From Selenomonas sputigena (GTDB lineage: Bacteria; Bacillota; Negativicutes; Selenomonadales; Selenomonadaceae), in the NCBI RefSeq assembly GCF_026015965.1, contig NZ_CP110383.1, forward strand, positions 653,808 to 717,807: a stretch of 64,000 bases of DNA, in the 5' to 3' direction. The notes under the pieces were generated by a model, which saw only the letters and a program-made list of their open reading frames with translations, was not told the DNA's origin and did not search any database. The position numbers and the translations under genes were made by a program. This document shows, one piece after another, positions 3,423 to 39,819 of this stretch. The first letter of the stretch is position 1. Every line of letters starts with the position of its first letter.

Positions 3423-6359
3423 TTGGAGTCACGGGAGTTTTTGGAGCTGCTTTATCAAAGCGCCGAAGGGTATACCTATCTGTGGAAATTGCCGGAGAAG
3501 CAGACCGTCAGCTTTTCCCTGGATCAGCTGGACGCCATGACGCGGATGGCGCACGAAGAGGGTGCCGCCTACCGTCGGGACATGTTTTTCTCAGTCGGTA
3601 TATCTGCAGGAGAATATCCGTCGAATAAACGCGCGAAAAACGAGGACATCATCGCCATCCCTGCGCTCTGGGTAGACATCGACATCGCGGGCGCGGGACA
3701 TACCGCGAAGAACCTGCCGCCGGACTATGCGTCGGCGCGTGCGCTCCTGCCGGGCGCGATCGATCCGACGGCGATCGTCATGAGCGGGCACGGCATCCAC
3801 GCCTATTATGTCATGAGAGAGGCGATGCCGACGACGACGGATGCTGAGCGTTCCGAGGCAGTCGATCTCCTGCGCCGCCTGCAGTACGTCGTCCGCGCGA
3901 ATGCGGATGCGCATGGCTGGACGGTCGACAACACGACGGATCTCGCGCGCGTGCTGCGCCTGCCGGGAACGATGAATTTCAAGGGAGCGCCCGTGGCGTG
4001 CGAGGTTGTCGAATACGATGCGGCGCGACTCTACAATCCCGAGGATTTTGACATATTGCCGCCCGTCGAAGAAGCCGCATCGAAGGCTGTGCGCAAAACA
4101 AAATTCGAGCGGCGGCAGACTGACGGCGACGCGAAGCTGATGCTCGCAAACTGCGCCTTCCTGCAGCATTTCCAGCAAAACTATAAGACGCTCCCGGAGC
4201 CGGTCTGGAAGGCCGCCTGCACGAATCTCATGCGCGGCGTGGGCGGTGAGGATCTCATCGTGCCGCTCGTCAGGGATTGGCTCGGCGATAAGTACAATGA
4301 GCAAGAAACGCTGAAGAAGCTCACGCACTATCTTGATGACTGCCAACCGCAGACCTGCACGCATATCAAAACGGAACTGGGCTTTCAAGGCTGCTCCGAC
4401 TGCCCCGGCGTAAAATCGCCGTGCGCGTGGTCGCTCGGCAAGGTGCCGCAGGCGATCGCGAAGATTCGTGAAATTACGTTGCCGGATGTCGAAAACACGC
4501 TGAATGAGGAAATCCTTGGGGCGCTCGCGCTCGTCAATCGAGAAAACGGCTTGGAATATGCACGCTTCAAGGAACGCTGCAAGGGCAGGGTCAATCTGAA
4601 TGATTTGCAGCGCGAAGTGAAGCGTATGCAGGCGAAGCAGGCTGGGCTCTCAGTGGTCGAGGGCGGCGCCGCAGAAGCAGGGCAAAGGCTCGGCGATGTG
4701 ACGACGCGCTCGATCTTGCCGGACACGCCGCTCGATCTCATCGTGCCGCCGAATTTTTCCTACAGCGCGAACGGCATATACGAGGTGCGGATGACGGACG
4801 CGGGAGAGGTGCAGCGGCTCGCTGCAGGTGCTCCTGTCATCATCTCGGAAAAGCAGTACAACATCGACACGCAGGCGGAGAAGGTGCAGATTTCCTTCCG
4901 CTATTACGGCCGTTGGATGCACGCGGTATGCAAGCGTTCGGAGGTGTTTTCCGCACGCGGCATCCTTGCGCTCGCCGATCGCGGTCTCAATACGTCGAGC
5001 GAGGCGGCGAAATACCTGGTCAAATACCTGCAGGTGCTCGAAGCCGCCAACCCGGACATTCCGCTCGTCCATGCCGTGTCAAAGATTGGCTGGCGTCCCG
5101 ATGGATTGACCGAGTTTGTCATCCCTTCGTCGAGCAAGTACCGCGTCGACATGGACGACGACGGCGAGCTCTCTGCAGCATTCACGCAGGGCGGGACGCT
5201 TGACGAGTGGAAGCGGGCGGCCGAGGCGATCCGATTTCATCCGTTCGCCCGCTTCGCCTTGGCGGCGGCGTTCGCCGCTCCGCTCCTCAAGATCTGCAAG
5301 AACCGCAATTTCATGATTTATTTCTGGGGCACGTCGGGCGGCGGCAAGACGGCGGCGCAGCGCTTCGCGCTCTCGGTCTGGGGCAATCCGAAGCGACTCA
5401 TGAAATCGTTCTACGGGACGACGAACGGGCTTGAGCGCGCCGCCGAGTACAGCAACGATTTCCCGCTCGTCATCAATGAGCGCCAGGTCATGATGGGCAA
5501 CAACAAGCAGGAATCCTTGGAGAGTCTCGTCTATATGCTTGAGGGCGGTCATGGCAAGGTGCGTGCGAGCAAGTTCGGCATCCGCAAGACCGCCACATGG
5601 CGTACGATCGCGATGGCGTCGGGCGAGGAGCCGCTGTCAAAGGAGTCGAGCATCCAGGGCGTCAAGACGCGCCTCATTGAGCTGAACGTCTATCCCGTAC
5701 TGCCGGAGATGGTCGCCAAGATGGTCTATGCGATGGATGAGGAGCAGCACGGCACTGCCGGCAGGGCGTTTGTTGAGCGGCTTCTGCAGGAGGCGTCGAC
5801 GGCGTATGCGGAGATTCTTGCGGCGCGTCAGGCGCTGATCGCAAGGCTTCGGACGGATTATCCCGAGCACTTCGAGCCGCACATCGACAACGTGGCGACG
5901 GTCGCCATCGCGGACATGCTTTCGAGCCTGTGGCTTTTCGGCGAGCCGTCCGAGACGGCGCAGCAGGAGGCGTACGATATGGCTGCCGCCATCATGGCGG
6001 AGCTGCCGACGAGGATCGAGATATCCGATACGCAGCGTGCGTGGGACTTCGTGGAGGCGTGGCTTGTGAGTAACTGGCAGCATTTCAGCAATGACAACGG
6101 TTATGAAGCGCGCGCCAAACTGTCGCCGGAATACGGCTTCATCCGCAACGGCTATATCAACGTCTATCCGATATATCTGCGCGATGCGCTCGATGGGGCG
6201 GGGTTTGCGTCCAACAAGTTTTTAAAAGAGCTTGCCGAGACCGGGCTGATCTGCTCGACGCCCGAAAAGGGCAGGCGAAGATTTACGAAGAGGGTCAGCT
6301 ATGGTGGGGCGAAGATTCATGTCGTACAGATTCCACAAAGAGAGGAGCGCTTGTTATGA
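3423..6359 (+). CDS. Primase-helicase (PrimPol-like N-terminus with DUF927 helicase)
   Basis: A 978-residue replication protein. Residues 60-220 resemble an archaeo-eukaryotic primase fold: WVDIDIAG supplies metal-binding acids, MSGHGIHAYYV the conserved SGxGxH motif, and DLARVLRLPGTMNFK follows. Residues 320-340 hold a Cys cluster (CSDCPG). Residues 450-850 form a DUF927-type helicase with Walker A WGTSGGGKTAAQ near 635. The start is a TTG behind a GGGGCGAGGGG ribosome site. It is the main replication protein, with an iteron-rich origin-like region directly downstream. Confidence 0.85.
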   Translation: MESREFLELLYQSAEGYTYLWKLPEKQTVSFSLDQLDAMTRMAHEEGAAYRRDMFFSVGISAGEYPSNKRAKNEDIIAIPALWVDIDIAGAGHTAKNLPPDYASARALLPGAIDPTAIVMSGHGIHAYYVMREAMPTTTDAERSEAVDLLRRLQYVVRANADAHGWTVDNTTDLARVLRLPGTMNFKGAPVACEVVEYDAARLYNPEDFDILPPVEEAASKAVRKTKFERRQTDGDAKLMLANCAFLQHFQQNYKTLPEPVWKAACTNLMRGVGGEDLIVPLVRDWLGDKYNEQETLKKLTHYLDDCQPQTCTHIKTELGFQGCSDCPGVKSPCAWSLGKVPQAIAKIREITLPDVENTLNEEILGALALVNRENGLEYARFKERCKGRVNLNDLQREVKRMQAKQAGLSVVEGGAAEAGQRLGDVTTRSILPDTPLDLIVPPNFSYSANGIYEVRMTDAGEVQRLAAGAPVIISEKQYNIDTQAEKVQISFRYYGRWMHAVCKRSEVFSARGILALADRGLNTSSEAAKYLVKYLQVLEAANPDIPLVHAVSKIGWRPDGLTEFVIPSSSKYRVDMDDDGELSAAFTQGGTLDEWKRAAEAIRFHPFARFALAAAFAAPLLKICKNRNFMIYFWGTSGGGKTAAQRFALSVWGNPKRLMKSFYGTTNGLERAAEYSNDFPLVINERQVMMGNNKQESLESLVYMLEGGHGKVRASKFGIRKTATWRTIAMASGEEPLSKESSIQGVKTRLIELNVYPVLPEMVAKMVYAMDEEQHGTAGRAFVERLLQEASTAYAEILAARQALIARLRTDYPEHFEPHIDNVATVAIADMLSSLWLFGEPSETAQQEAYDMAAAIMAELPTRIEISDTQRAWDFVEAWLVSNWQHFSNDNGYEARAKLSPEYGFIRNGYINVYPIYLRDALDGAGFASNKFLKELAETGLICSTPEKGRRRFTKRVSYGGAKIHVVQIPQREERLL

Positions 6360-17737: not shown

Positions 17738-19189
17738 ATGGCGTATTTTCATGGCGCAAAAGTCAGGGAAATCCCGACATCTATCATCCCGCCAGTCAAT
17801 ACCACGGCGGGACTTCCCGTTGTATGGGGCACGGCGCCCGTACATCTCACGAAAGACCCGCAGAAGAATGTCAACAAGCCCGTGATCTGCTACGACTGGG
17901 CAGAGGCGGTGCGTGCGTTCGGCTACAGCGCAGACTGGGACAGCTTCACGCTCTCCGAGGTCATGTACGCAGAGTTCAAGCTGTACGCTGTCAAGCCGAT
18001 CATCTTCATCAATGTGCTCGACCCGAAGAAGCACAAGGAGAGCAAGAAGGACACGGAAGGGCGCAAGGTGAACGGGGCGCATGAAGTCGTCATCGAAGAT
18101 ACCGTGCTCATCCCTACGCTCAAGGTCAAGGCGACGGCTCTTTCCGATCCCGCCAAGCTCGATACGGACTATGCGGCGGCCTACGACGACGACGGGCGGC
18201 TCATCATCACGCTGATCGAGGGCGGCGCACTCTTCGGCAAAACGGAAATCTTCACGGAGTATGACCGTGTGGATGCCACGAAGGTCAAGAAGGACGACAT
18301 CATCGGCGGCGTGTCGACAAGCGGAGAGATCAAAGGCTCGGAATGGGCAAGCTCCATCTACACGCTCTTTTCCCTTGTGCCCGGCATCCTTGCCGCTCCC
18401 GGCTGGACGGATGATCCGACGGTCGCCGCCGTCCTCAAGGCGAAGGCGCTGACGCTCTGCGGGCTTTTCCGCTGCATCGTCCTCACGGACGTGGACACGG
18501 GCGAAGTCAAGAGCTACGCCGATGTCAACGCATGGAAGAACAAGAACAACTATACGGGCGTCAATCAGGTCGTATGCTGGCCGTGCGTCAAGAACGGCGA
18601 TTACGTTTTCCGCATGTCCACGCATATCCTCGGCGTCATCGGCGTCATGGATGCTGCGAACGACGACGTACCGTATGAAAGCCCGTCGAATCTCTCTTTG
18701 CAGGCGACGGGGCTGTGCCTCAAAGATGGCACGGAAGTCAGCATCAGTTTTGAGCAGGCGAACATGCTCAACAGTCAGGGCGTCATGACGGGGCTGAACT
18801 TCAGCGGCGGTTGGAAGAGCTGGGGCAACTATACGGGCGCATACCCGTCTGTCACCGACACGAAAGACTGCTTCATCAGCGTGCGTCGCATGTTTGATTG
18901 GCAGTACCAGACGTTCATTCTGACGTATTGGCAGAAGGTGGACAGGCCGCTCACGCAGCGTCTCGTGCGCACGGTTGTCGACAGCGAATCCGTGCGGCTG
19001 AACGGGCTGGTGGCGCGTGGATTCCTCTTGGGGGCGAGCGTCCAATTCCTTGAAAGCGAGAACCCGCTGACTGATCTCCTGCAGGGCATTTTCCGTATCC
19101 ACAGCTACATCACGCCGCCCGTCCCCGCGCAGGAGATTGAGGACATCCTTGAGTACGACGTCAACAACTTCAAGACGCTCTTTGCGTAA
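17738..19189 (+). CDS. Contractile tail sheath protein
   Basis: A 483-residue sheath subunit of the P2 gpFI type. The N-terminal segment (GAKVREIPTSIIPPVNTTAGLPVVWGTAP) is the family start; the C-terminal domain contains RRMFDWQYQTFILTYWQKVDRPLTQRLV. The sheath surrounds the tube and contracts during injection, which makes this a myovirus-type phage. The next gene is the tube, as expected. Confidence 0.92.
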   Translation: MAYFHGAKVREIPTSIIPPVNTTAGLPVVWGTAPVHLTKDPQKNVNKPVICYDWAEAVRAFGYSADWDSFTLSEVMYAEFKLYAVKPIIFINVLDPKKHKESKKDTEGRKVNGAHEVVIEDTVLIPTLKVKATALSDPAKLDTDYAAAYDDDGRLIITLIEGGALFGKTEIFTEYDRVDATKVKKDDIIGGVSTSGEIKGSEWASSIYTLFSLVPGILAAPGWTDDPTVAAVLKAKALTLCGLFRCIVLTDVDTGEVKSYADVNAWKNKNNYTGVNQVVCWPCVKNGDYVFRMSTHILGVIGVMDAANDDVPYESPSNLSLQATGLCLKDGTEVSISFEQANMLNSQGVMTGLNFSGGWKSWGNYTGAYPSVTDTKDCFISVRRMFDWQYQTFILTYWQKVDRPLTQRLVRTVVDSESVRLNGLVARGFLLGASVQFLESENPLTDLLQGIFRIHSYITPPVPAQEIEDILEYDVNNFKTLFA

Positions 19190-29965: not shown

Positions 29966-30496
29966 ATGGCAACAAGAAACTACGTCCCGCGTGCAAATGG
30001 GGAAGGCAGCATCGGGACGGAAAAGAAGCGCTGGGGAGCGATATTCGCCGAAAAGGTCGCAGTCAAGGCGCTCGAAGTAATCGGAGGTGGGACGGAGAAT
30101 GATGCGCAGCCTGCAACGGTCGGGTGGGTGAAACAAGGCTTTGAGAAGTTATTGAAGTCTACCATTGAAGCGTCTGGAATAAGAGTGATGGTCGGTCACA
30201 ATGCGAGCTATGTCTGCTTCGGAAATCTTTTCGGCAATCTGACCATCCAGTGGGGAACGCTGGGGTGGGATGTTGGGAAATTTTATAAAGATGTAGTGTA
30301 TCCTATATCCTATCGAAAATCGTGCAGGACAATCGTTGCAGATACCTCTTTCAACGTTGGAGAAAATGGTATTTCGGAATTAGATAAAAGCATACATCTC
30401 TTAATTGATGAAGGAAAATCTGACCTGACGAAATGTAGAATAACAAGCTCGATGACGGACGTTGGGGCATTTTCCTATTTATCTATTGGGCTCTGA
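29966..30496 (+). CDS. Tail fibre distal/receptor-binding protein
   Basis: A 176-residue protein. Residues 1-45 (GSIGTEKKRWGAIFAEKVAV) match the adaptor found on many Firmicute phage fibres. Residues 85-176 look like a gp53-type receptor-binding domain: LTIQWGTLGWDVGKFYKDVV, a beta-rich body and an aromatic end (FSYLSIGL). The 3' half is visibly richer in A/T than its neighbours, as expected of a swapped host-range tip. The function is inferred from layout. Confidence 0.7.
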   Translation: MATRNYVPRANGEGSIGTEKKRWGAIFAEKVAVKALEVIGGGTENDAQPATVGWVKQGFEKLLKSTIEASGIRVMVGHNASYVCFGNLFGNLTIQWGTLGWDVGKFYKDVVYPISYRKSCRTIVADTSFNVGENGISELDKSIHLLIDEGKSDLTKCRITSSMTDVGAFSYLSIGL

Positions 30497-32937: not shown

Positions 32938-32975
32938 AACGGCCCCGAGGCTTTGGCTTTGGGGCCGTTTTTTAT
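32938..32975 (+). terminator. Strong intrinsic terminator at the end of the phage late operon
   Basis: CGGCCCC (32940-32946) pairs with GGGGCCG (32961-32967) and is followed by TTTTTT. It separates the late operon from the accessory module. Confidence 0.85.
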
Positions 32976-32984
32976 TTGGGGTAG

Positions 32985-33013
32985 TTGACAGAATATTGAG
33001 ATTGGACTATAAT
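32985..33013 (+). promoter_or_regulatory. Perfect consensus sigma-70 promoter
   Basis: TTGACA at 32985-32990 and TATAAT at 33008-33013 with a 17-bp spacer: every base is consensus. Transcription should start near 33020 and produce the structured RNA that follows. Such a strong promoter is unusual within a prophage unless the product is made in the lysogen. Confidence 0.85.
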
Positions 33014-33019
33014 AAAAAT

Positions 33020-33188
33020 GCAAGACAGCTCGCCTAGAAGCGGGCTGGTCGCCTCGTAGAGGCGCGGATTAGAATAGCGAAATAAAAATGGTGTCTATTG
33101 CAAATGAGTGGGAACACTCAAACGGGCGGAGACGCCAGCAAAAATGGAGAGTGTCGAAAAGGCCTCTCCATTTTTGCTTTTTATTTTT
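33020..33188 (+). ncRNA. Structured non-coding RNA of unknown class
   Basis: A transcript of about 165 nt between a perfect promoter and an intrinsic terminator, without a convincing reading frame. Helix 1: AGCTCGC (33027-33033) with GCGGGCT (33040-33046), extended by GAC/GTC. Helix 2: GCCTC/GAGGC (33051-33063). Helix 3: TGAGTG/CACTCA (33105-33120) with a GGAA tetraloop. Helix 4: GGCG/CGCC (33126-33137) with a GAGA tetraloop. TTGC and GCAA close helices 3 and 4 into a three-way junction. Terminator: a 12-bp stem (33140-33151 with 33164-33175) plus a T-rich tail. I do not recognise the class. Confidence 0.7.
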
Positions 33189-33208
33189 ACAAAAAGTTAA
33201 AAAGCCTC

Positions 33209-33254
33209 TTGACATATCAATGATTTATATGCTAGCATATATATGCTAGCATAT
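33209..33254 (+). promoter_or_regulatory. Promoter with tandem palindromic operators, copy 1
   Basis: A TTGACA -35 box (33209-33214) is followed by two abutting perfect 14-bp palindromes ATATGCTAGCATAT (33227-33240 and 33241-33254) that cover the -10 region. A protein bound there would block RNA polymerase. The same arrangement recurs at 38170. The ribbon-helix-helix protein at 37982 is the likely binder. Confidence 0.75.
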
Positions 33255-33272
33255 AAATAGGGAGGGCTTAAG

Positions 33273-34376
33273 ATGGCAAAATATGATGTTGTTTGCAGCT
33301 GTGGGCACGAAGAAACTATCGTGCTTTACGGAAAGTCTTCAGAGCGTGAACGGAAAATTGAATGGCTGGAAAATTACGGGCTTTGCAGTGAATGTTACAA
33401 AGCCCAAATGCAGAAACATGAGGAGACCAGTAGAAAAGAACGCAAAGAAGCATTTAATCTTCCCACGCTTGAAGGGTCGCCCAAGCAAGTGGCTTGGGCG
33501 GAGAAGATTCGTGATGGTTTTTTTAAGGATTGGGAAAAGCTCGGGCCGCAAAAAGACCCGCGCGCTGAAAAATTCGTCAACTGGCTGAAAAACCAGACAG
33601 AAGCGAGGTTTTGGATTGATAATAGAGAGAAGTCAATCCGTGAATTGGTAAAAGAATGGGCGGAAAACGAAAGTAAAATATATGCTGTTGAAGAATCCAA
33701 AGAACTGGAAGCCGCCGCAAAAGAGGAGGCTTCCATATATCCGGAGAACGAGCAGACAAAAGATATAGCAGAGATCTGCCACAAGGGCGAGTTTATAGAA
33801 ATAAAATCGCCAAAAAACGACATTATCATAGAAACCGCAAGAGCGGCAGGATATAAATGGGACGGTGAGAAGGCTCGGTGGTGCATGAAAGTGACGGCGA
33901 CAAGGGGACGAGTAGAAGACCGCATCGCAGAAATCGGGAATCTCCTGCTGAATGCGGGCGTCCCTATCTGCATATATGATGAGGAAGTACGAGAGAAAGC
34001 CGTCAGGGGAGAGTTTGAGCCACAAAAACATAAGTGGATACTAAAGAGCGGGGATGAAGAAGTAGAGATATATTGGCGCACCAGAGAATATAGCCTCTAT
34101 GATGAGGCAAAGCGCCTGCCGCACGCGAAATATCGCGAAGGCACTATGCGCGTGCCATCACGGTATTTTGCGGAGATACGGGAGTTTGTGAAACTCTACG
34201 ATCTCGGAATCTCGGAAGCGGCAGAAGCCCTCCTTACCCAAGAGGAGAAAGCGTATAAAGAAAGGATTACCGTGTCGCCTAAAAAGACAGAGAGCGACAG
34301 CCAAAGAGGCGATAAGTTGAAAGAAATCCTGGAATCGTCCCGCGATGTTTTGGAGGATTTGAGGGATGAAGATTGA
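33273..34376 (+). CDS. Accessory-module protein with N-terminal zinc ribbon
   Basis: A 367-residue protein, first of the accessory operon. Residues 8-42 contain paired Cys motifs (VCSCGHEE and CSECYK) that should bind zinc. Residues 60-160 hold EGSPKQVAWAEKIRDGFFKD and a region rich in Glu/Lys; residues 170-320 look globular (FIEIKSPKNDIIIETARAAG, AGYKWDGEKARWCMKVTATR). The C-terminus is charged. I do not recognise the family. It overlaps the SNF2 gene by 11 bp, so the two are probably co-translated. Confidence 0.75.
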   Translation: MAKYDVVCSCGHEETIVLYGKSSERERKIEWLENYGLCSECYKAQMQKHEETSRKERKEAFNLPTLEGSPKQVAWAEKIRDGFFKDWEKLGPQKDPRAEKFVNWLKNQTEARFWIDNREKSIRELVKEWAENESKIYAVEESKELEAAAKEEASIYPENEQTKDIAEICHKGEFIEIKSPKNDIIIETARAAGYKWDGEKARWCMKVTATRGRVEDRIAEIGNLLLNAGVPICIYDEEVREKAVRGEFEPQKHKWILKSGDEEVEIYWRTREYSLYDEAKRLPHAKYREGTMRVPSRYFAEIREFVKLYDLGISEAAEALLTQEEKAYKERITVSPKKTESDSQRGDKLKEILESSRDVLEDLRDED

Positions 34377-36156
34377 TATCCCGCTCTTACCACATCAGGA
34401 AGAGGCCGTAAACAAGCTCAAAAAAATAAAAGTCGGTGCCTTGTATATGGAACAAGGCACCGGGAAAACACGGACGGCACTGGAACTCATCTCAGCGAGA
34501 TTGAACAGCGCAAAGGTGGACGCTGCACTCTGGCTTTGTCCGTGCAGCGTTAAAAGGAACTTGCGGGAAGACCTCGCTTATTACTGCGGGGAATTTCCGC
34601 AAGATATTATTGTGCGTGGGATAGAAAGTCTATCATCCGCCGACTTGCTCTACATGAAGCTGTTGGAGCTGGTAAAACGATACCGCGTGTTTTTGGTGGT
34701 GGATGAAAGCAATCTCACCAAAAATAAAGACGCGATCCGCACGCAGCGCGTCATCGAACTCGCCAGTCATTGCGAGTATAAGCTTATTTTGAATGGCACG
34801 CCGATCTCAAAGAATGAGGCGGACATGTTCGCTCAATGGTACATATTGGACTGGCGAATTCTTGGGTATCAAAGCTTTTATAGCTTTGCGGCAAACCATT
34901 TGGAATACCGAAGAATTCGATTGCCAAGTGGACGTGAGATCGTGGACTACAATCGAATCGAAGCGGTGCTGAATACAGACTACCTGTCAGAGAAAATAGC
35001 ACCGTATACTTATCAGGTAAAAAAGGCGGAATGCCTTGAATTACCTGATAAAAAATATTTTGGGGAACCATTTTCTTTAGATGAAACGCAGATGGAAGAG
35101 TATAGGGAGGTGAAACTGGCATATCTTGAATATGTCGATGAAATTCGCTCGGAAACAATATACAAGCTATTTGCGGCATTACAGCATATTGTATCTGGGC
35201 GGCGGATTCTGACCAGTCCGCAAGAACGGATGGTAACAGAAGCGATGATGCCTGATGAAGATAATCCTCGCCTTTGGGCATTGAAGAATCTGTTACAGAG
35301 AGAAATAGGGGATGAAAAGGTTCTGATTTTCTGCAAATACAGAACGGAGGCTACAAGTATTTGCAAGATGTTGACGCAGATGGGGCGAAGCAGCGTGTTG
35401 TTTACGGGTGAGATATCACAAAAGAAGCGACAGGAAAACAGAAAAAGGTTCCGGGATGATATGCAAGTCATGGTCGCAAATAAGGCTTGCGGCGCCTATG
35501 GCTTAAACCTGCAATTTTGCAGAAATATCATATTTTACAGCAATGACTTTGATCTTGCGACGCGGATGCAAGCAGAGGATCGCGTACATCGCATTGGTCA
35601 GACTGAGGAGGTGCGTATTTACGATATTTACTCTGTAGACACCATAGATGAGTTCATCATGCGTTGTTTGTGGCGAAAAGAAAGCCTCGTAGAAGAGTTT
35701 AAGAAGAATATTGAGAAATGGAGGGACGAAATGATAAAGTACAGACAAATTTCTTCAGGAATAATGCCGGAAGAATTTTACATCAAACTGGGACCGTTCC
35801 TCGGATCGAGGGATGTGCGCAAGGAGTTTGATGGATATCCGCTCAGCAATGCGGATGATTGGACGTGGATTGTCGCCGAAGATGGCGATGAAATTGTCGG
35901 CTTTGTGTCCATCGAGCCGAAAAACAAAGTACTGCAGTTCAGTGCCGGATATGTCATTCCGTCGCATCGCAGGAAAGGTGTATACAAGCGGCTCATAAAA
36001 GAGGCGGTTAAGTTTGCGGGCAATCGGGCAATGGACGTGACGACACGAGAGTATCTTGTGCCACTTTTTGAAAAGGCTGGCTTCCAGGCATTGAAAATGA
36101 AGGGAAAGAAATGGCGGCGTATGAGGAGAGTGCCCAATGAAAAAGGTGTATCTTAA
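34366..36156 (+). CDS. SNF2-family helicase fused to a GNAT acyltransferase
   Basis: A 596-residue fusion. Residues 1-455 are a SNF2-type ATPase: Walker A LYMEQGTGKTRTALELI, motif II VVDESNLTKN (DESN instead of DEAH), and motif VI in QAEDRVHRIGQTEEVRIYDI. Residues 475-596 resemble a GNAT domain: YIPSHRRKG-type acyl-CoA loop (VIPSHRRKGVYKRLIKEAVK) and the terminal YLVPLFEKAGFQAL. SNF2 proteins move along double-stranded DNA; a GNAT partner could acylate a protein or, as in phage Mu Mom, a base. It overlaps the IbrA-like gene by 20 bp. Confidence 0.85.
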   Translation: MKIDIPLLPHQEEAVNKLKKIKVGALYMEQGTGKTRTALELISARLNSAKVDAALWLCPCSVKRNLREDLAYYCGEFPQDIIVRGIESLSSADLLYMKLLELVKRYRVFLVVDESNLTKNKDAIRTQRVIELASHCEYKLILNGTPISKNEADMFAQWYILDWRILGYQSFYSFAANHLEYRRIRLPSGREIVDYNRIEAVLNTDYLSEKIAPYTYQVKKAECLELPDKKYFGEPFSLDETQMEEYREVKLAYLEYVDEIRSETIYKLFAALQHIVSGRRILTSPQERMVTEAMMPDEDNPRLWALKNLLQREIGDEKVLIFCKYRTEATSICKMLTQMGRSSVLFTGEISQKKRQENRKRFRDDMQVMVANKACGAYGLNLQFCRNIIFYSNDFDLATRMQAEDRVHRIGQTEEVRIYDIYSVDTIDEFIMRCLWRKESLVEEFKKNIEKWRDEMIKYRQISSGIMPEEFYIKLGPFLGSRDVRKEFDGYPLSNADDWTWIVAEDGDEIVGFVSIEPKNKVLQFSAGYVIPSHRRKGVYKRLIKEAVKFAGNRAMDVTTREYLVPLFEKAGFQALKMKGKKWRRMRRVPNEKGVS

Positions 36157-37441
36157 AGAAAATGTATATGAGGCCGCGCAGGCGCGGATGCGCTACATTT
36201 TCGACGAATTCGAGAAAGTGTTGATTTCTTTTTCAGGCGGCAAAGATAGTGGTGTCGTCTTAAACATGGCCATAGATATGGCACGTGAGCGAGGACGGAA
36301 AATAGGAGTACTGTTCATCGATCTTGAAGCATTCTATGAAAAGACAATTTCCTATGTCGAGAAGATGATTTCCGAGAATCTCGATGTGATCGAACCATAT
36401 TGGATATGTCTGCCAATGGAGAGTCCAAACAGTCTATCGTTTCTCGAACCAACATGGATATGGTGGCAGCCAGAGAAAGAGCCGATCTGGGTGCGCCCGA
36501 TGCCGAAGAATCCGTGGGTCATAAATTTGAACAATCAAACATTCCCGTGGTATCGGCAGAATATGCCCTTTGAGAAGTTTATTCTCCATTTCGCTGAATG
36601 GTATGCTCAAGGGAAGAAAACCGCGCAGCTCGTAGGCATACGGACAGATGAAAGCCTCAACCGATGGCGGGCAGTGGCTGCTGACAGCAGCCAGAAGAAT
36701 ATTTACAAAGATAAAGCATGGTCGGTCAAAATGGCGGAGGATGTATATAGTTTCTACCCCGTATACGACTGGTCGTCGGAAGACGACTGGATCTATTACG
36801 GAAAACACAATAAGCCGTATAATACACTATATGACCTGTTCTATCGAGCGGGAATATCCATCCATAAAATGAGAGTGGACGAGCCGTTTGGGAATGAGGC
36901 AAAAGCGGGATTGAGCTTGTTCCGTGTGATTGAGCCGGAGACGTGGGCACGGGTTGTTAATCGCGTGTCTGGCGCGAATTTCGGCAATATATACAGCGGG
37001 AAAAAAATTATGACCGCCGCGTACACGCTGCCAAAAGGTCACACATGGAAAAGTTTCTGTAAATTCCTGTTGACAACCTTGCCGGAGGAGACGGCAGACA
37101 ATTATCGGCGGAAATTCATAAAATTCATCCGGTACTGGAGAAAAACTGGATGCCCGGTGCTGGCAGATGCGATCGAGGAAATCGAGCGCACAGCTCCAGG
37201 AGCATACGAAAATACCCATAAACCAAGCAATAGGGGGAAAGGCGACAAGGACGTAATCAAGGCGCGGCGCGTACTGGATGAACTTCCGGGACTGGATAGT
37301 CGACAAGATTTATGCACTTGGAAGCGCATGGCCATGTGCATCATCAAGAACGATTACGTGTGCAAGGGACTGTGCTTTACGATTACAAAAGACCTGACCT
37401 TGCGACAAAAGGCAATCATTGAGAAATACAAGAACATTTAA
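36137..37441 (+). CDS. ibrA: IbrA/DndC-like PP-loop (PAPS reductase-type) protein, DUF3440
   Basis: A 434-residue protein. The PP-loop VLISFSGGKDSGVVLNMA (residues 29-46) binds ATP as in PAPS reductases, and DndC uses the same fold to activate sulfur chemistry. The middle (LVGIRTDESLNRWRAV, VYDWSSEDDWIYYGKHNKPY) and C-terminal half (GAYENTHKPSNRGK, WKRMAMCIIKND) match the IbrA/DUF3440 group. In E. coli, IbrA and IbrB act together as regulators of immunoglobulin-binding genes; their chemistry is unknown. Several Cys are present, but no clear iron-sulfur cluster motif. Confidence 0.85.
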   Translation: MKKVYLKENVYEAAQARMRYIFDEFEKVLISFSGGKDSGVVLNMAIDMARERGRKIGVLFIDLEAFYEKTISYVEKMISENLDVIEPYWICLPMESPNSLSFLEPTWIWWQPEKEPIWVRPMPKNPWVINLNNQTFPWYRQNMPFEKFILHFAEWYAQGKKTAQLVGIRTDESLNRWRAVAADSSQKNIYKDKAWSVKMAEDVYSFYPVYDWSSEDDWIYYGKHNKPYNTLYDLFYRAGISIHKMRVDEPFGNEAKAGLSLFRVIEPETWARVVNRVSGANFGNIYSGKKIMTAAYTLPKGHTWKSFCKFLLTTLPEETADNYRRKFIKFIRYWRKTGCPVLADAIEEIERTAPGAYENTHKPSNRGKGDKDVIKARRVLDELPGLDSRQDLCTWKRMAMCIIKNDYVCKGLCFTITKDLTLRQKAIIEKYKNI

Positions 37442-37456
37442 GGAAGGGTGATGGAA

Positions 37457-37966
37457 ATGGCATATCAGAGTCCAGTGTATGGCGTGAGAGCCGTACCGAT
37501 CGAAAAAATACGAGCAAACGAGTACAACCCCAACAGCGTGGCGCCGCCGGAAATGAAGCTTTTGTATGACAGCATTAAGGAGGACGGATACACGATGCCG
37601 ATTGTCTGCTATATGGCAGATGATGGCATGTATGAAATTGTCGATGGATTTCATAGATATTCCATTATGCTCAAGCATAAGGACATCTATGAGCGCGAGG
37701 GCGGGATGCTTCCTGTCTCAGTCATTAACAAGCCGATCGGTGAGCGGATGGCCAGCACGATACGCCACAATCGGGCGCGAGGATCGCATGACCTTGACCT
37801 GATGAGCAATATCGTGCGCGAACTCGTGGATATGGGTAAGAGCAACCGCTGGATCATGCAACACCTCGGCATGGATGCCGATGAGGTGATCCGTCTCAAG
37901 CAAATCACAGGGTTGGCAGCGCTGTTCAAGGACAAGAACTTTTCCCGCGCTTGGGAAGCAAAATAA
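37457..37966 (+). CDS. ibrB: IbrB-like ParB/sulfiredoxin-fold protein
   Basis: A 169-residue ParB-N/sulfiredoxin-fold protein. PIEKIRANEYNPNSVAPPEM and IVDGFHRYSIMLKHKDI are the family motifs, followed by HNRARGSHD, the nucleotide-binding box of ParB-like proteins, and a helix-turn-helix (MGKSNRWIMQHLGMDADEVI). Such proteins accompany IbrA. The start is ATG 37457, 8 bp after GGAAGGG; ATG 37451 is too close to that site. Confidence 0.85.
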   Translation: MAYQSPVYGVRAVPIEKIRANEYNPNSVAPPEMKLLYDSIKEDGYTMPIVCYMADDGMYEIVDGFHRYSIMLKHKDIYEREGGMLPVSVINKPIGERMASTIRHNRARGSHDLDLMSNIVRELVDMGKSNRWIMQHLGMDADEVIRLKQITGLAALFKDKNFSRAWEAK

Positions 37967-37981
37967 GGAGGTGCGTGTGCG

Positions 37982-38173
37982 ATGGCTTGGCAAGATAATG
38001 CAAAAAGATATATAAATAAATACAATAGTGAAAAATATGACCGTATTGCGATTCGCGTCCCTCAGGGTTTGAGGGACGCGATAAAAGACGCGGCCAATCA
38101 AGCAGGGCTTTCAATGGCTGCTTTTATCACAACGGCTGTGGAAGAAAAAATAAAATCTTTGAAAAAGACTTGA
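37982..38173 (+). CDS. Ribbon-helix-helix repressor (Arc/MetJ-like)
   Basis: A 63-residue protein. Residues 22-55 match a ribbon-helix-helix: strand RIAIRVPQ, helix GLRDAIKDAANQAG, turn, helix SMAAFITTAVEEKIK. Dimers of this fold bind palindromes through the strand. Its gene lies between the two copies of the tandem ATATGCTAGCATAT operator, and its stop codon overlaps the -35 box of the second. It is the obvious candidate for regulating both promoters. Confidence 0.85.
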   Translation: MAWQDNAKRYINKYNSEKYDRIAIRVPQGLRDAIKDAANQAGLSMAAFITTAVEEKIKSLKKT

Positions 38174-38215
38174 CGTATCGATAGTTTATATGCTAGCATA
38201 TATATGCTAGCATAT
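38170..38215 (+). promoter_or_regulatory. Promoter with tandem palindromic operators, copy 2
   Basis: TTGACG (38170-38175) and two abutting ATATGCTAGCATAT palindromes (38188-38201 and 38202-38215). The distance from the -35 box to the palindromes is 18 bp, exactly as in copy 1. It drives the last gene of the module. Confidence 0.75.
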
Positions 38216-38242
38216 AAACGACAACGAATAGGAGGAGTCAAG

Positions 38243-38698
38243 ATGGTAGAATTTGTTGTACACTACGGGGCCTGCAATGAGGGATGGAACGAATCATTCC
38301 AGTCTATCGATGAGGCCTTAGAGTTCGCCCGAGAAGTTACACCAGAAAGCACTTGGTGCTTTATTGATCTTCAAGGCGGCTTTGAGGGATTGCCCCGACC
38401 AAAATACGTTTTGTGCGAAGCAAGCAAAACGGGAGGGAAGTGGTACGTCGGCAAGATGCCAGCAACGGAAGCCGACGCAAAAAAGTTCCTTAAAGAATAT
38501 ATGGCCGTTGGACAGTCCAGAGAAAAGCGAGTGAGAGAGGCAATAGAGGAGGCGGAAAAAGACTTCCCCAAGACAGGAGATTTTTTGTATGATGCTTTAC
38601 TTCTACACCTTCCTGAGATTGATGTCCCTTTGACGGAAGAAGAGGCGAAGATGCAGGAGAAAATCCTTGCACTGTGCAAAGAAATGGAAGATGAATAA
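38243..38698 (+). CDS. Hypothetical acidic protein of the accessory module
   Basis: A 151-residue acidic protein (VVHYGACNEGWNESFQSIDE at the N-terminus; helical Glu-rich C-terminus with LTEEEAKMQEKILALCKEME). A GGAGGAG ribosome site precedes ATG 38243. It has its own copy of the module operator, so its dosage is probably tuned together with the helicase operon. The family is unknown; a host-factor mimic or inhibitor cannot be excluded. Confidence 0.65.
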   Translation: MVEFVVHYGACNEGWNESFQSIDEALEFAREVTPESTWCFIDLQGGFEGLPRPKYVLCEASKTGGKWYVGKMPATEADAKKFLKEYMAVGQSREKRVREAIEEAEKDFPKTGDFLYDALLLHLPEIDVPLTEEEAKMQEKILALCKEMEDE

Positions 38699-38700
38699 AG

Positions 38701-38742
38701 ATAAGCCCCGACAGTCTTCATACGAACTGTCGGGGCTTATTT
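38701..38742 (+). terminator. Terminator of the accessory module
   Basis: AAGCCCCGACAGT pairs with ACTGTCGGGGCTT across a short loop: a 13-bp stem. It ends the accessory module only a few bases after the last stop codon and may work in both directions. Confidence 0.8.
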
Positions 38743-38787: not shown

Positions 38788-38910
38788 TATGGGTTTTTAC
38801 ACTAAAGTATGATATAGTATGGATAGCGATAAATCGTGATTTCTTTGTTTTGTACCTAGGCGCATGATGCAAGAACTCAGTAAAATCAAGGGTCGAAGGG
38901 AATATGTATA

Positions 38911-39819
38911 ATGATAAAAAATGATGTAGCGAGAGATATACCCATCATCCAGTGGTATCCGGGCCACATGAAGAAAGCACGGGAACTGGTGGAGGAGAAT
39001 TTGAAGCTTGTAGATGTCGTTGTCGAACTGCTTGACGCGCGGATTCCAGCGGCGAGCGCGAATCCCATGCTGCGGGAGATCGTCGGCGACAAGCCGCGCG
39101 TCGTGGCGCTCAACAAGAGGGATCTGGCGGACGAGAAGATGACGAAGTGTTGGCTGGAATATTTTCGTGCACAGAAGCTTCCGGCTGTCGCGCTCGATTC
39201 TGTGACGGGGAAGGGCATGCGGGAACTGTTGGTGCTCATTGAGAAGGCTGCGAAACATCGTACGGAAAGGTTGGTATCGAAAGGTGTTGCAGCACGCAAG
39301 GCGCGTGTGATGATCCTCGGCATACCGAACGTCGGAAAGTCGTCCCTGATCAACCGCTTGGCAGGCGCGGCGAAGGCGAAGACGGCGGACAAGCCAGGCG
39401 TCACGCGCGCGAAGCAGTGGATCCGCATCGGAGCGGACGTTGATCTCTTGGATACTCCGGGGATTCTTTGGCCGAAGTTTGAAGACCGCGCGGTTGGACT
39501 TAAGTTGGCGTTTACCGGCGCGGTCAACGATGAGATCTACGATTTGGAGAATGTGGCGCACTTGCTCCTTGCGGCTTTGCGGCGCGATCATCCGGAACGC
39601 TTGCAGGAGCGTTTCAAGTTCAAGGAGGCGCTTCCAGAGACTACGGAGGAACTGATGGAGGCGATTGGACGCAAGCGTGGCTGCCTTTTGAAGGGCGGAC
39701 GCATCGATTTCGAGAAGGTGCAGCATATCCTTCTGACGGAATTCCGCATGGGGAAGTTTGGCAAGATCAGCTTGGACGTGCCCCCGACGGAACCATCGGA
39801 GGAAGTGGACGGCGGTTAA
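38911..39819 (+). CDS. ylqF: Ribosome biogenesis GTPase YlqF/RbgA
   Basis: A 302-residue circularly permuted GTPase needed for late assembly of the 50S subunit. G4 is in ALNKRDLAD (residue 66), followed by G5-like VTGKGM; G1 is GIPNVGKSSLIN near residue 136 and G3 is DTPGILWPKF. The N-terminal QWYPGHMKKARELV is the family signature. It is the first host core gene after the prophage and overlaps rnhB by one base. Confidence 0.96.
   Translation: MIKNDVARDIPIIQWYPGHMKKARELVEENLKLVDVVVELLDARIPAASANPMLREIVGDKPRVVALNKRDLADEKMTKCWLEYFRAQKLPAVALDSVTGKGMRELLVLIEKAAKHRTERLVSKGVAARKARVMILGIPNVGKSSLINRLAGAAKAKTADKPGVTRAKQWIRIGADVDLLDTPGILWPKFEDRAVGLKLAFTGAVNDEIYDLENVAHLLLAALRRDHPERLQERFKFKEALPETTEELMEAIGRKRGCLLKGGRIDFEKVQHILLTEFRMGKFGKISLDVPPTEPSEEVDGG

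Follow-up and report, generated by a model that had tools for sequence, protein, structure and literature searches.

An RNA of a Selenomonas sputigena prophage that mimics the host type I-C CRISPR repeat is most likely an RNA anti-CRISPR, encoded beside a separate SNF2-IbrA-IbrB cassette

RacrIC1, a solitary repeat mimic in a Bifidobacterium prophage whose subtype is that of the host CRISPR-Cas system, restores phage growth under type I-C targeting, and RacrIF1 ties up Cas6f and Cas7f in a nonfunctional subcomplex (PMC10651486). The SRUFinder rule recognizes such elements only at 41.1 bits and an identity of 90% or more to a known repeat. Among protein anti-CRISPRs, AcrIF23 blocks cleavage by Cas2/3 (PMC13381967) and AcrIE7 covers the single strand displaced in the R-loop (PMC13131331). 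Degenerate ectopic repeats followed by pseudo-spacers are also known as crRNA-like regulators (PMC9458426). Self-targeting has previously led to anti-CRISPRs, including those of a type I-C host (PMC10810201). We describe here an RNA of a Selenomonas sputigena prophage that, judged from its sequence and predicted fold, mimics the type I-C repeat of its own host and is most likely an RNA anti-CRISPR.

The analysed window is a stretch of 64,000 nucleotides (bases 653808-717807) of a complete host genome of 2.61 Mb. The complete prophage comprises 45,852 bp flanked by 133-bp perfect direct att repeats, and encodes an integrase beside attL, a CI-like repressor, and terminase, portal, capsid, and tape-measure proteins. 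A cargo region lies at its right end, after the lysis genes and their terminator, and contains the following features in order (window coordinates).

32938-32969, + strand: terminator of the lysis region, upstream boundary
32985-33013, + strand: RNA promoter, TTGACA-17-TATAAT, 12/12 consensus match, free of the RHH operator
33020-33187, + strand: structured noncoding RNA, predicted transcript, its start placed from the promoter
33026-33047, + strand: 5' hairpin, directly abutting the repeat mimic
33048-33075, + strand: degenerate type I-C repeat mimic GTCGCCTCGTAGAGGCGCGGATTAGAAT, with a 6-bp stem and an 11-nt handle
33138-33188, + strand: RNA terminator, a 17-bp interrupted stem and T-run, from the fold
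33209-33253, + strand: promoter of the ORF1 operon, with the palindromic operator TATGCTAGCATA twice in tandem
33273-34376, + strand: ORF1, 367 aa
34366-36156, + strand: SNF2 DNA translocase fused to a C-terminal GNAT acetyltransferase
36137-37441, + strand: IbrA, PP-loop PAPS-reductase-like with DUF3440
37448-37966, + strand: IbrB, a ParB/Srx-like protein
37982-38173, + strand: ribbon-helix-helix (RHH) regulator, YlcI/YnfO family
38170-38214, + strand: second promoter, with the same operator as the ORF1 promoter
38243-38698, + strand: ORF164, 151 aa if started at this ATG, an orphan gene behind the second operator
38701-38740, strand not assigned: terminator hairpin, downstream boundary
38819-38951: attR, 133-bp perfect repeat of attL (G000:C1:646907-647039)

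The original prediction holds in part for this setting. All the open reading frames are present between the two bounding terminators; the region is AT-richer than its surroundings (GC 0.44-0.49 compared to 0.52-0.58); and attR just beyond it places it at the prophage right end. The domain calls were likewise confirmed, with SNF2/Helicase_C and GNAT, PAPS_reductase and DUF3440 in IbrA, ParB_N in IbrB, and an RHH protein that scores above the NCBIfam YlcI/YnfO cutoff. The view of the region as accessory prophage cargo tied to phage-host conflict, with genes that are DNA-acting by domain content, also stands. Three gene overlaps had been proposed, and those of SNF2 with ORF1 (34366-34376) and of IbrA with SNF2 (36137-36156) are real, but 33273 is a gene start at which nothing overlaps.

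The consensus promoter and the terminator fold predict that the RNA is made as a small noncoding transcript. Positions 33014-33192 fold with -75.7 kcal/mol, compared to -45.2 kcal/mol for shuffled sequences (z = -7.4). The mimic has the plan of a type I-C repeat, that is, GU, a CGC...GCG stem, and an 11-nt handle. Compared to the host repeat, GTCGCGCCCCACGCGGGCGCGTGGATTGAAAT, its stem-loop is 4 nt shorter and its handle (CGGAUUAGAAU, host UGGAUUGAAAU) differs at 2-3 of 11 positions, where the C of the mimic also occurs in one host repeat. In the full fold, five of the six stem pairs have a probability of at least 0.98 and 10 of the 11 handle bases are unpaired. The mimic was the sole hit in the window, on either strand, of a descriptor that allows gaps in the stem, and the sole, weak hit (12.7 bits, E = 1.5) of a covariance model built from 11 related I-C repeats. 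It is solitary, with no second repeat hit in the window, and the RNA lies at 0.69 Mb, far from the cas locus at ≈2.58 Mb.

That this is an ordinary phage small RNA whose resemblance to a I-C repeat arose by chance is highly improbable. Such a reading is favored by the lack of sequence relatives and by a covariance score that, taken alone, is weak. Against it, a descriptor requiring exact GTCGC, a stem of at least 6 bp, and a handle with at most 2 mismatches gave a random rate of 2 per 60 Mb, or ≈6e-6 for the RNA, rates that are after the fact because the resemblance was first spotted by eye, before testing. Moreover, the subtype of the mimic matches that of the host system, the fold presents the structure correctly, and the prophage is self-targeted. 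Sequence searches returned no homologous RNA for a covariation test, and a scan of the RNA against Rfam gave nothing at the gathering score and only chance-level matches (E = 0.17-5). Several partial matches were set aside: the RNA matches dnaE of genome G095 at 24/25 positions by coincidence, and the host lacks such a site even by a degenerate pattern; matches of 33039-33062 in genomes G135 and G085 are, read by eye, codons of the ABC-transporter D-loop; and a 19-nt match to the 5' hairpin in a relative with the cassette (L009) is borderline and without the structure.

We found that the host I-C locus is complete (cas3-5c-8c-7c-4-1-2 and a short array), with every cas gene full length and at 89-99% identity to its counterpart in a same-genus genome (G141), and with intact Cas3 motifs. 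Two of the eight host I-C spacers match the prophage, and the G141 array matches the cargo region itself, at the following sites.

17991-18024, - strand: protospacer of host I-C spacer 5, 33/34, mismatch at position 12, PAM TTC
30376-30409, - strand: protospacer of host I-C spacer 1, 33/34, mismatch at position 13, PAM TTC
34449-34502, - strand: two overlapping protospacers in SNF2, 34/34, PAM TTC, matched by G141 spacers

Both mismatches of the host spacers lie outside the seed; type I complexes flip out every sixth position, so that the one at position 12 should cost little. No spacer of two further host arrays, which have other repeats and one of which is near a second cas1 (L155, L156), matches the prophage. 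The G141 array also holds diverged spacers against IbrA and IbrB, which implies that I-C immunity in the genus does target phages carrying this cassette. Self-targeting of the prophage by the spacers of its own host implies that an inhibitor is needed, and with two spacers held against the prophage, the RNA is probably a decoy that spares it from destruction, although another prophage gene could be the inhibitor instead. The host array, short and with uneven repeats, is perhaps poorly expressed, in which case self-targeting could also be harmless. If the RNA does protect a self-targeted prophage from an apparently intact I-C system, its loss should expose the host's own chromosome to attack. 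As a separate observation, the host array (L064:11760-12410) is odd: a half-repeat in inverted orientation precedes spacer 1, repeat length varies over 31-34 nt, and the array may be decaying.

Type I-C repeats are processed by Cas5. Under the preferred reading of the RNA as an anti-CRISPR, Cas5c would bind the mimic hairpin and perhaps cleave it at 33064/33065, and the handle would capture Cas5c and Cas7c in a dead subcomplex around an RNA unable to guide; the prophage would thereby survive self-targeting. The RNA thus proposed resembles RacrIC1 in being a solitary prophage repeat mimic of the host's subtype that adjoins a gene with an anti-CRISPR-like domain, but unlike RacrIC1 its stem-loop is shortened (28 compared to 32 nt), its handle is altered, and the mimic sits inside a strongly folded RNA of ≈170 nt (PMC10651486). 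In short BLAST against 14 I-C repeats, the best score was 18.3 bits, and the mimic falls below SRUFinder's limits for both identity and bit score; we therefore describe the mimic as a Racr-like degenerate variant and not as a catalogued SRU. If our reading is correct, repeat-mimic RNAs are more degenerate and commoner than is implied by the published catalogue demanding 90% identity.

A degenerate repeat outside an array, with unstructured sequence 3' of it, also recalls the CreA and CreR type of regulator, in which the host Cascade would use the repeat and the following sequence as a partial guide that represses a gene. We consider this role very unlikely for the prophage RNA. A scan of the host I-C locus, cas promoters included, gave no seed match with a PAM for the 35 nt that follow the handle, and the best match in the window (11/12, PAM TGA) lies inside phage coding sequence. 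Here, different from those regulators, no toxin gene is adjacent, and the I-C locus and the window yielded no toxin target for the post-handle sequence.

The more serious question is whether a protein encoded in the prophage, by ORF1, ORF164, or another gene, blocks the I-C system while the RNA has some other role. ORF1 combines a CxCGH/CxxC zinc-ribbon-like region, an AcrIF23/AcrIE7-like domain at residues ≈52-138, and UvsW-N/XPB-DRD-like modules at residues 162-236 and 252-318. Residues ≈52-154 are homologous to AcrIF23 (E = 3.9e-7 with three sequences and 6.9e-7 with eight sequences; Z = 6.1 and rmsd 2.6 over 77 residues for the ORF1 model, a fold score that alone is modest), and the next match, AcrIE7, is weaker (E = 0.023; Z = 4.8, likewise modest alone). 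The model was built from only three sequences, with mean pLDDT 75.9 and pTM 0.45. The two remaining modules resemble the N-terminal DNA-binding domains of T4 UvsW and XPB at Z = 5-6.8, values that chance arrangements also reach; these equally modest matches replaced an early guess of a HARP domain. A search of viral contigs with ORF1 gave no match.

AcrIF23 and AcrIE7 both stop the Cas3 cleavage step, the shared sequence and fold extend to ORF1, and genes for protein and RNA anti-CRISPRs often cluster, all of which speak for a protein inhibitor. Yet unlike AcrIF23 and AcrIE7, ORF1 adds the zinc-ribbon-like N terminus and the two UvsW/XPB-like modules, so that the domain lies within a larger DNA-binding protein tied to SNF2 and may merely bind single-stranded DNA. 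Furthermore, no curated Acr model matched among the prophage proteins scanned against NCBIfam, and a protein inhibitor leaves the repeat mimic of the RNA unexplained. We therefore judge it unlikely that a protein takes the place of the RNA. The simplest reading makes ORF1 a partner of the SNF2 translocase that binds DNA and employs a domain shared with anti-CRISPRs, although it could add protein anti-CRISPR activity. Its composition suggests that AcrIF23 and AcrIE7 may derive from an accessory domain for DNA binding that accompanies the SNF2 translocases of phages. ORF164, which is under the same operator as ORF1, is an anti-CRISPR candidate worth a test; its predicted structure is too poor for use (pLDDT 54).

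The original prediction placed all of these elements, including a dedicated RNA, in one regulon and suggested that it may modify DNA, sense DNA, or keep out other phages. The protein genes lend themselves to such a role, since they include a SNF2 translocase, the DNA-binding ORF1, and PP-loop and ParB/Srx proteins, and there is a precedent for a ParB-like protein in DNA modification in DpdB, a ParB-like ATPase that aids the insertion of modified bases in DNA (PMC12839542). The promoters point to a different arrangement. The tandem palindrome TATGCTAGCATA(TA)TATGCTAGCATA occurs at 33228-33253 in the ORF1 promoter and at 38189-38214 in the ORF164 promoter, within an operator of 34 bp that is identical at the two sites and fits autoregulation by the RHH protein, which judged from sequence is likely the repressor at both. 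No copy of this operator is found at the RNA promoter, and the RNA is absent from every relative of the protein cassette examined, including two that have both ORF1 and SNF2-GNAT and no trace of it (L009, L010). Together, the operator-free RNA promoter and the absence of the RNA from cassette relatives imply two units, a cassette that moves independently and an RNA adjacent to it. Neither the single regulon nor the dedication of the RNA to the protein genes survives these results, and we regard the combined reading as quite unlikely. In L010 and L021, the cassettes have a palindromic operator that differs from that of the prophage. There (L010:3304-3450 and 4020-4080; L021:4600-4660 and 5280-5340), this other operator, ACCGTTTTCGGT...ACCGAAAACGGT, surrounds the -35 box; it precedes two genes in L021, and in L010 an RHH gene is nearby.

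ORF1, SNF2-GNAT, IbrA, and IbrB are thus a phage cassette separate from the RNA, which would comprise a SNF2 translocase with a DNA-binding partner in trans, a PP-loop ATP pyrophosphatase, and a ParB/Srx NTPase. We compared 97 IbrA loci from bacterial genomes and phages: IbrB is next to IbrA in 95, SNF2 is present in 55, and all three occur together in 54, where SNF2 lies just upstream of the IbrA-IbrB pair. By contrast, tblastn detected ORF1 in 8 of these loci, the GNAT fusion in 6, a prophage-type RHH gene in 1, and ORF164 in none; these are the best-scoring loci fetched and no random sample, and tblastn can miss remote homologues. The SNF2-IbrA-IbrB core is therefore an already recurrent combination, and the co-occurrence proposed as a check is borne out for that core but seldom extends to the GNAT fusion; the RNA, RHH, and ORF164 elements do not co-travel with it. 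The cassette is often found behind lysis genes in Streptococcus and Lactobacillus phages. The prophage genes have the same domains and order as the IbrA/IbrB phage genes (phrog_2302, phrog_2159), which have SNF2 directly upstream in about half of the loci examined; in the prophage, by contrast, SNF2 has a GNAT domain at its C terminus and follows ORF1. In L021 (5600-7050), what appears by eye to be a transposon of the IS200/IS605-TnpB type interrupts the ORF1-SNF2-IbrA cassette.

IbrA shares the PP-loop ATP pyrophosphatase domain of DndC and other phosphorothioation enzymes and keeps the PP-loop motif SGGKDS. DndC is expected to have a conserved cysteine set for an Fe-S cluster. Across 14 homologues, C91 is the sole invariant cysteine of IbrA, which scores 25.6 bits against the DndC model (cutoff 290.4 bits), and no other Dnd gene is present in the module. 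The single invariant cysteine and the low score imply that the DNA sulphuration suggested in the original prediction is not supported.

We also searched viral contigs for short-stem I-C mimics and obtained 35 stretches, compared to 0 when the handle was permuted as a control. Of these stretches, ≈15 fall within coding sequence and ≈20 are apparently intergenic, some of them just behind good promoters (L130, L132, L139). It is possible, though doubtful, that these form a class of short-stem I-C mimics that is widespread in phages, is missed by published rules, and sometimes occurs in tandem or beside a I-E mimic; in the prophage described here, such an RNA would block Cascade assembly while the AcrIF23-like protein would block Cas3 cleavage. 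In L130 (≈5069-5260, - strand) and L132 (3588-3700), tandem non-identical I-C-like repeats lie directly behind a promoter, like a mimic array. In L127 (≈1490-1556, - strand) and L151 (11700-11800), a short-stem I-C mimic and a type I-E-like repeat lie no more than ≈12-40 nt apart, as though a single RNA were directed at both subtypes.
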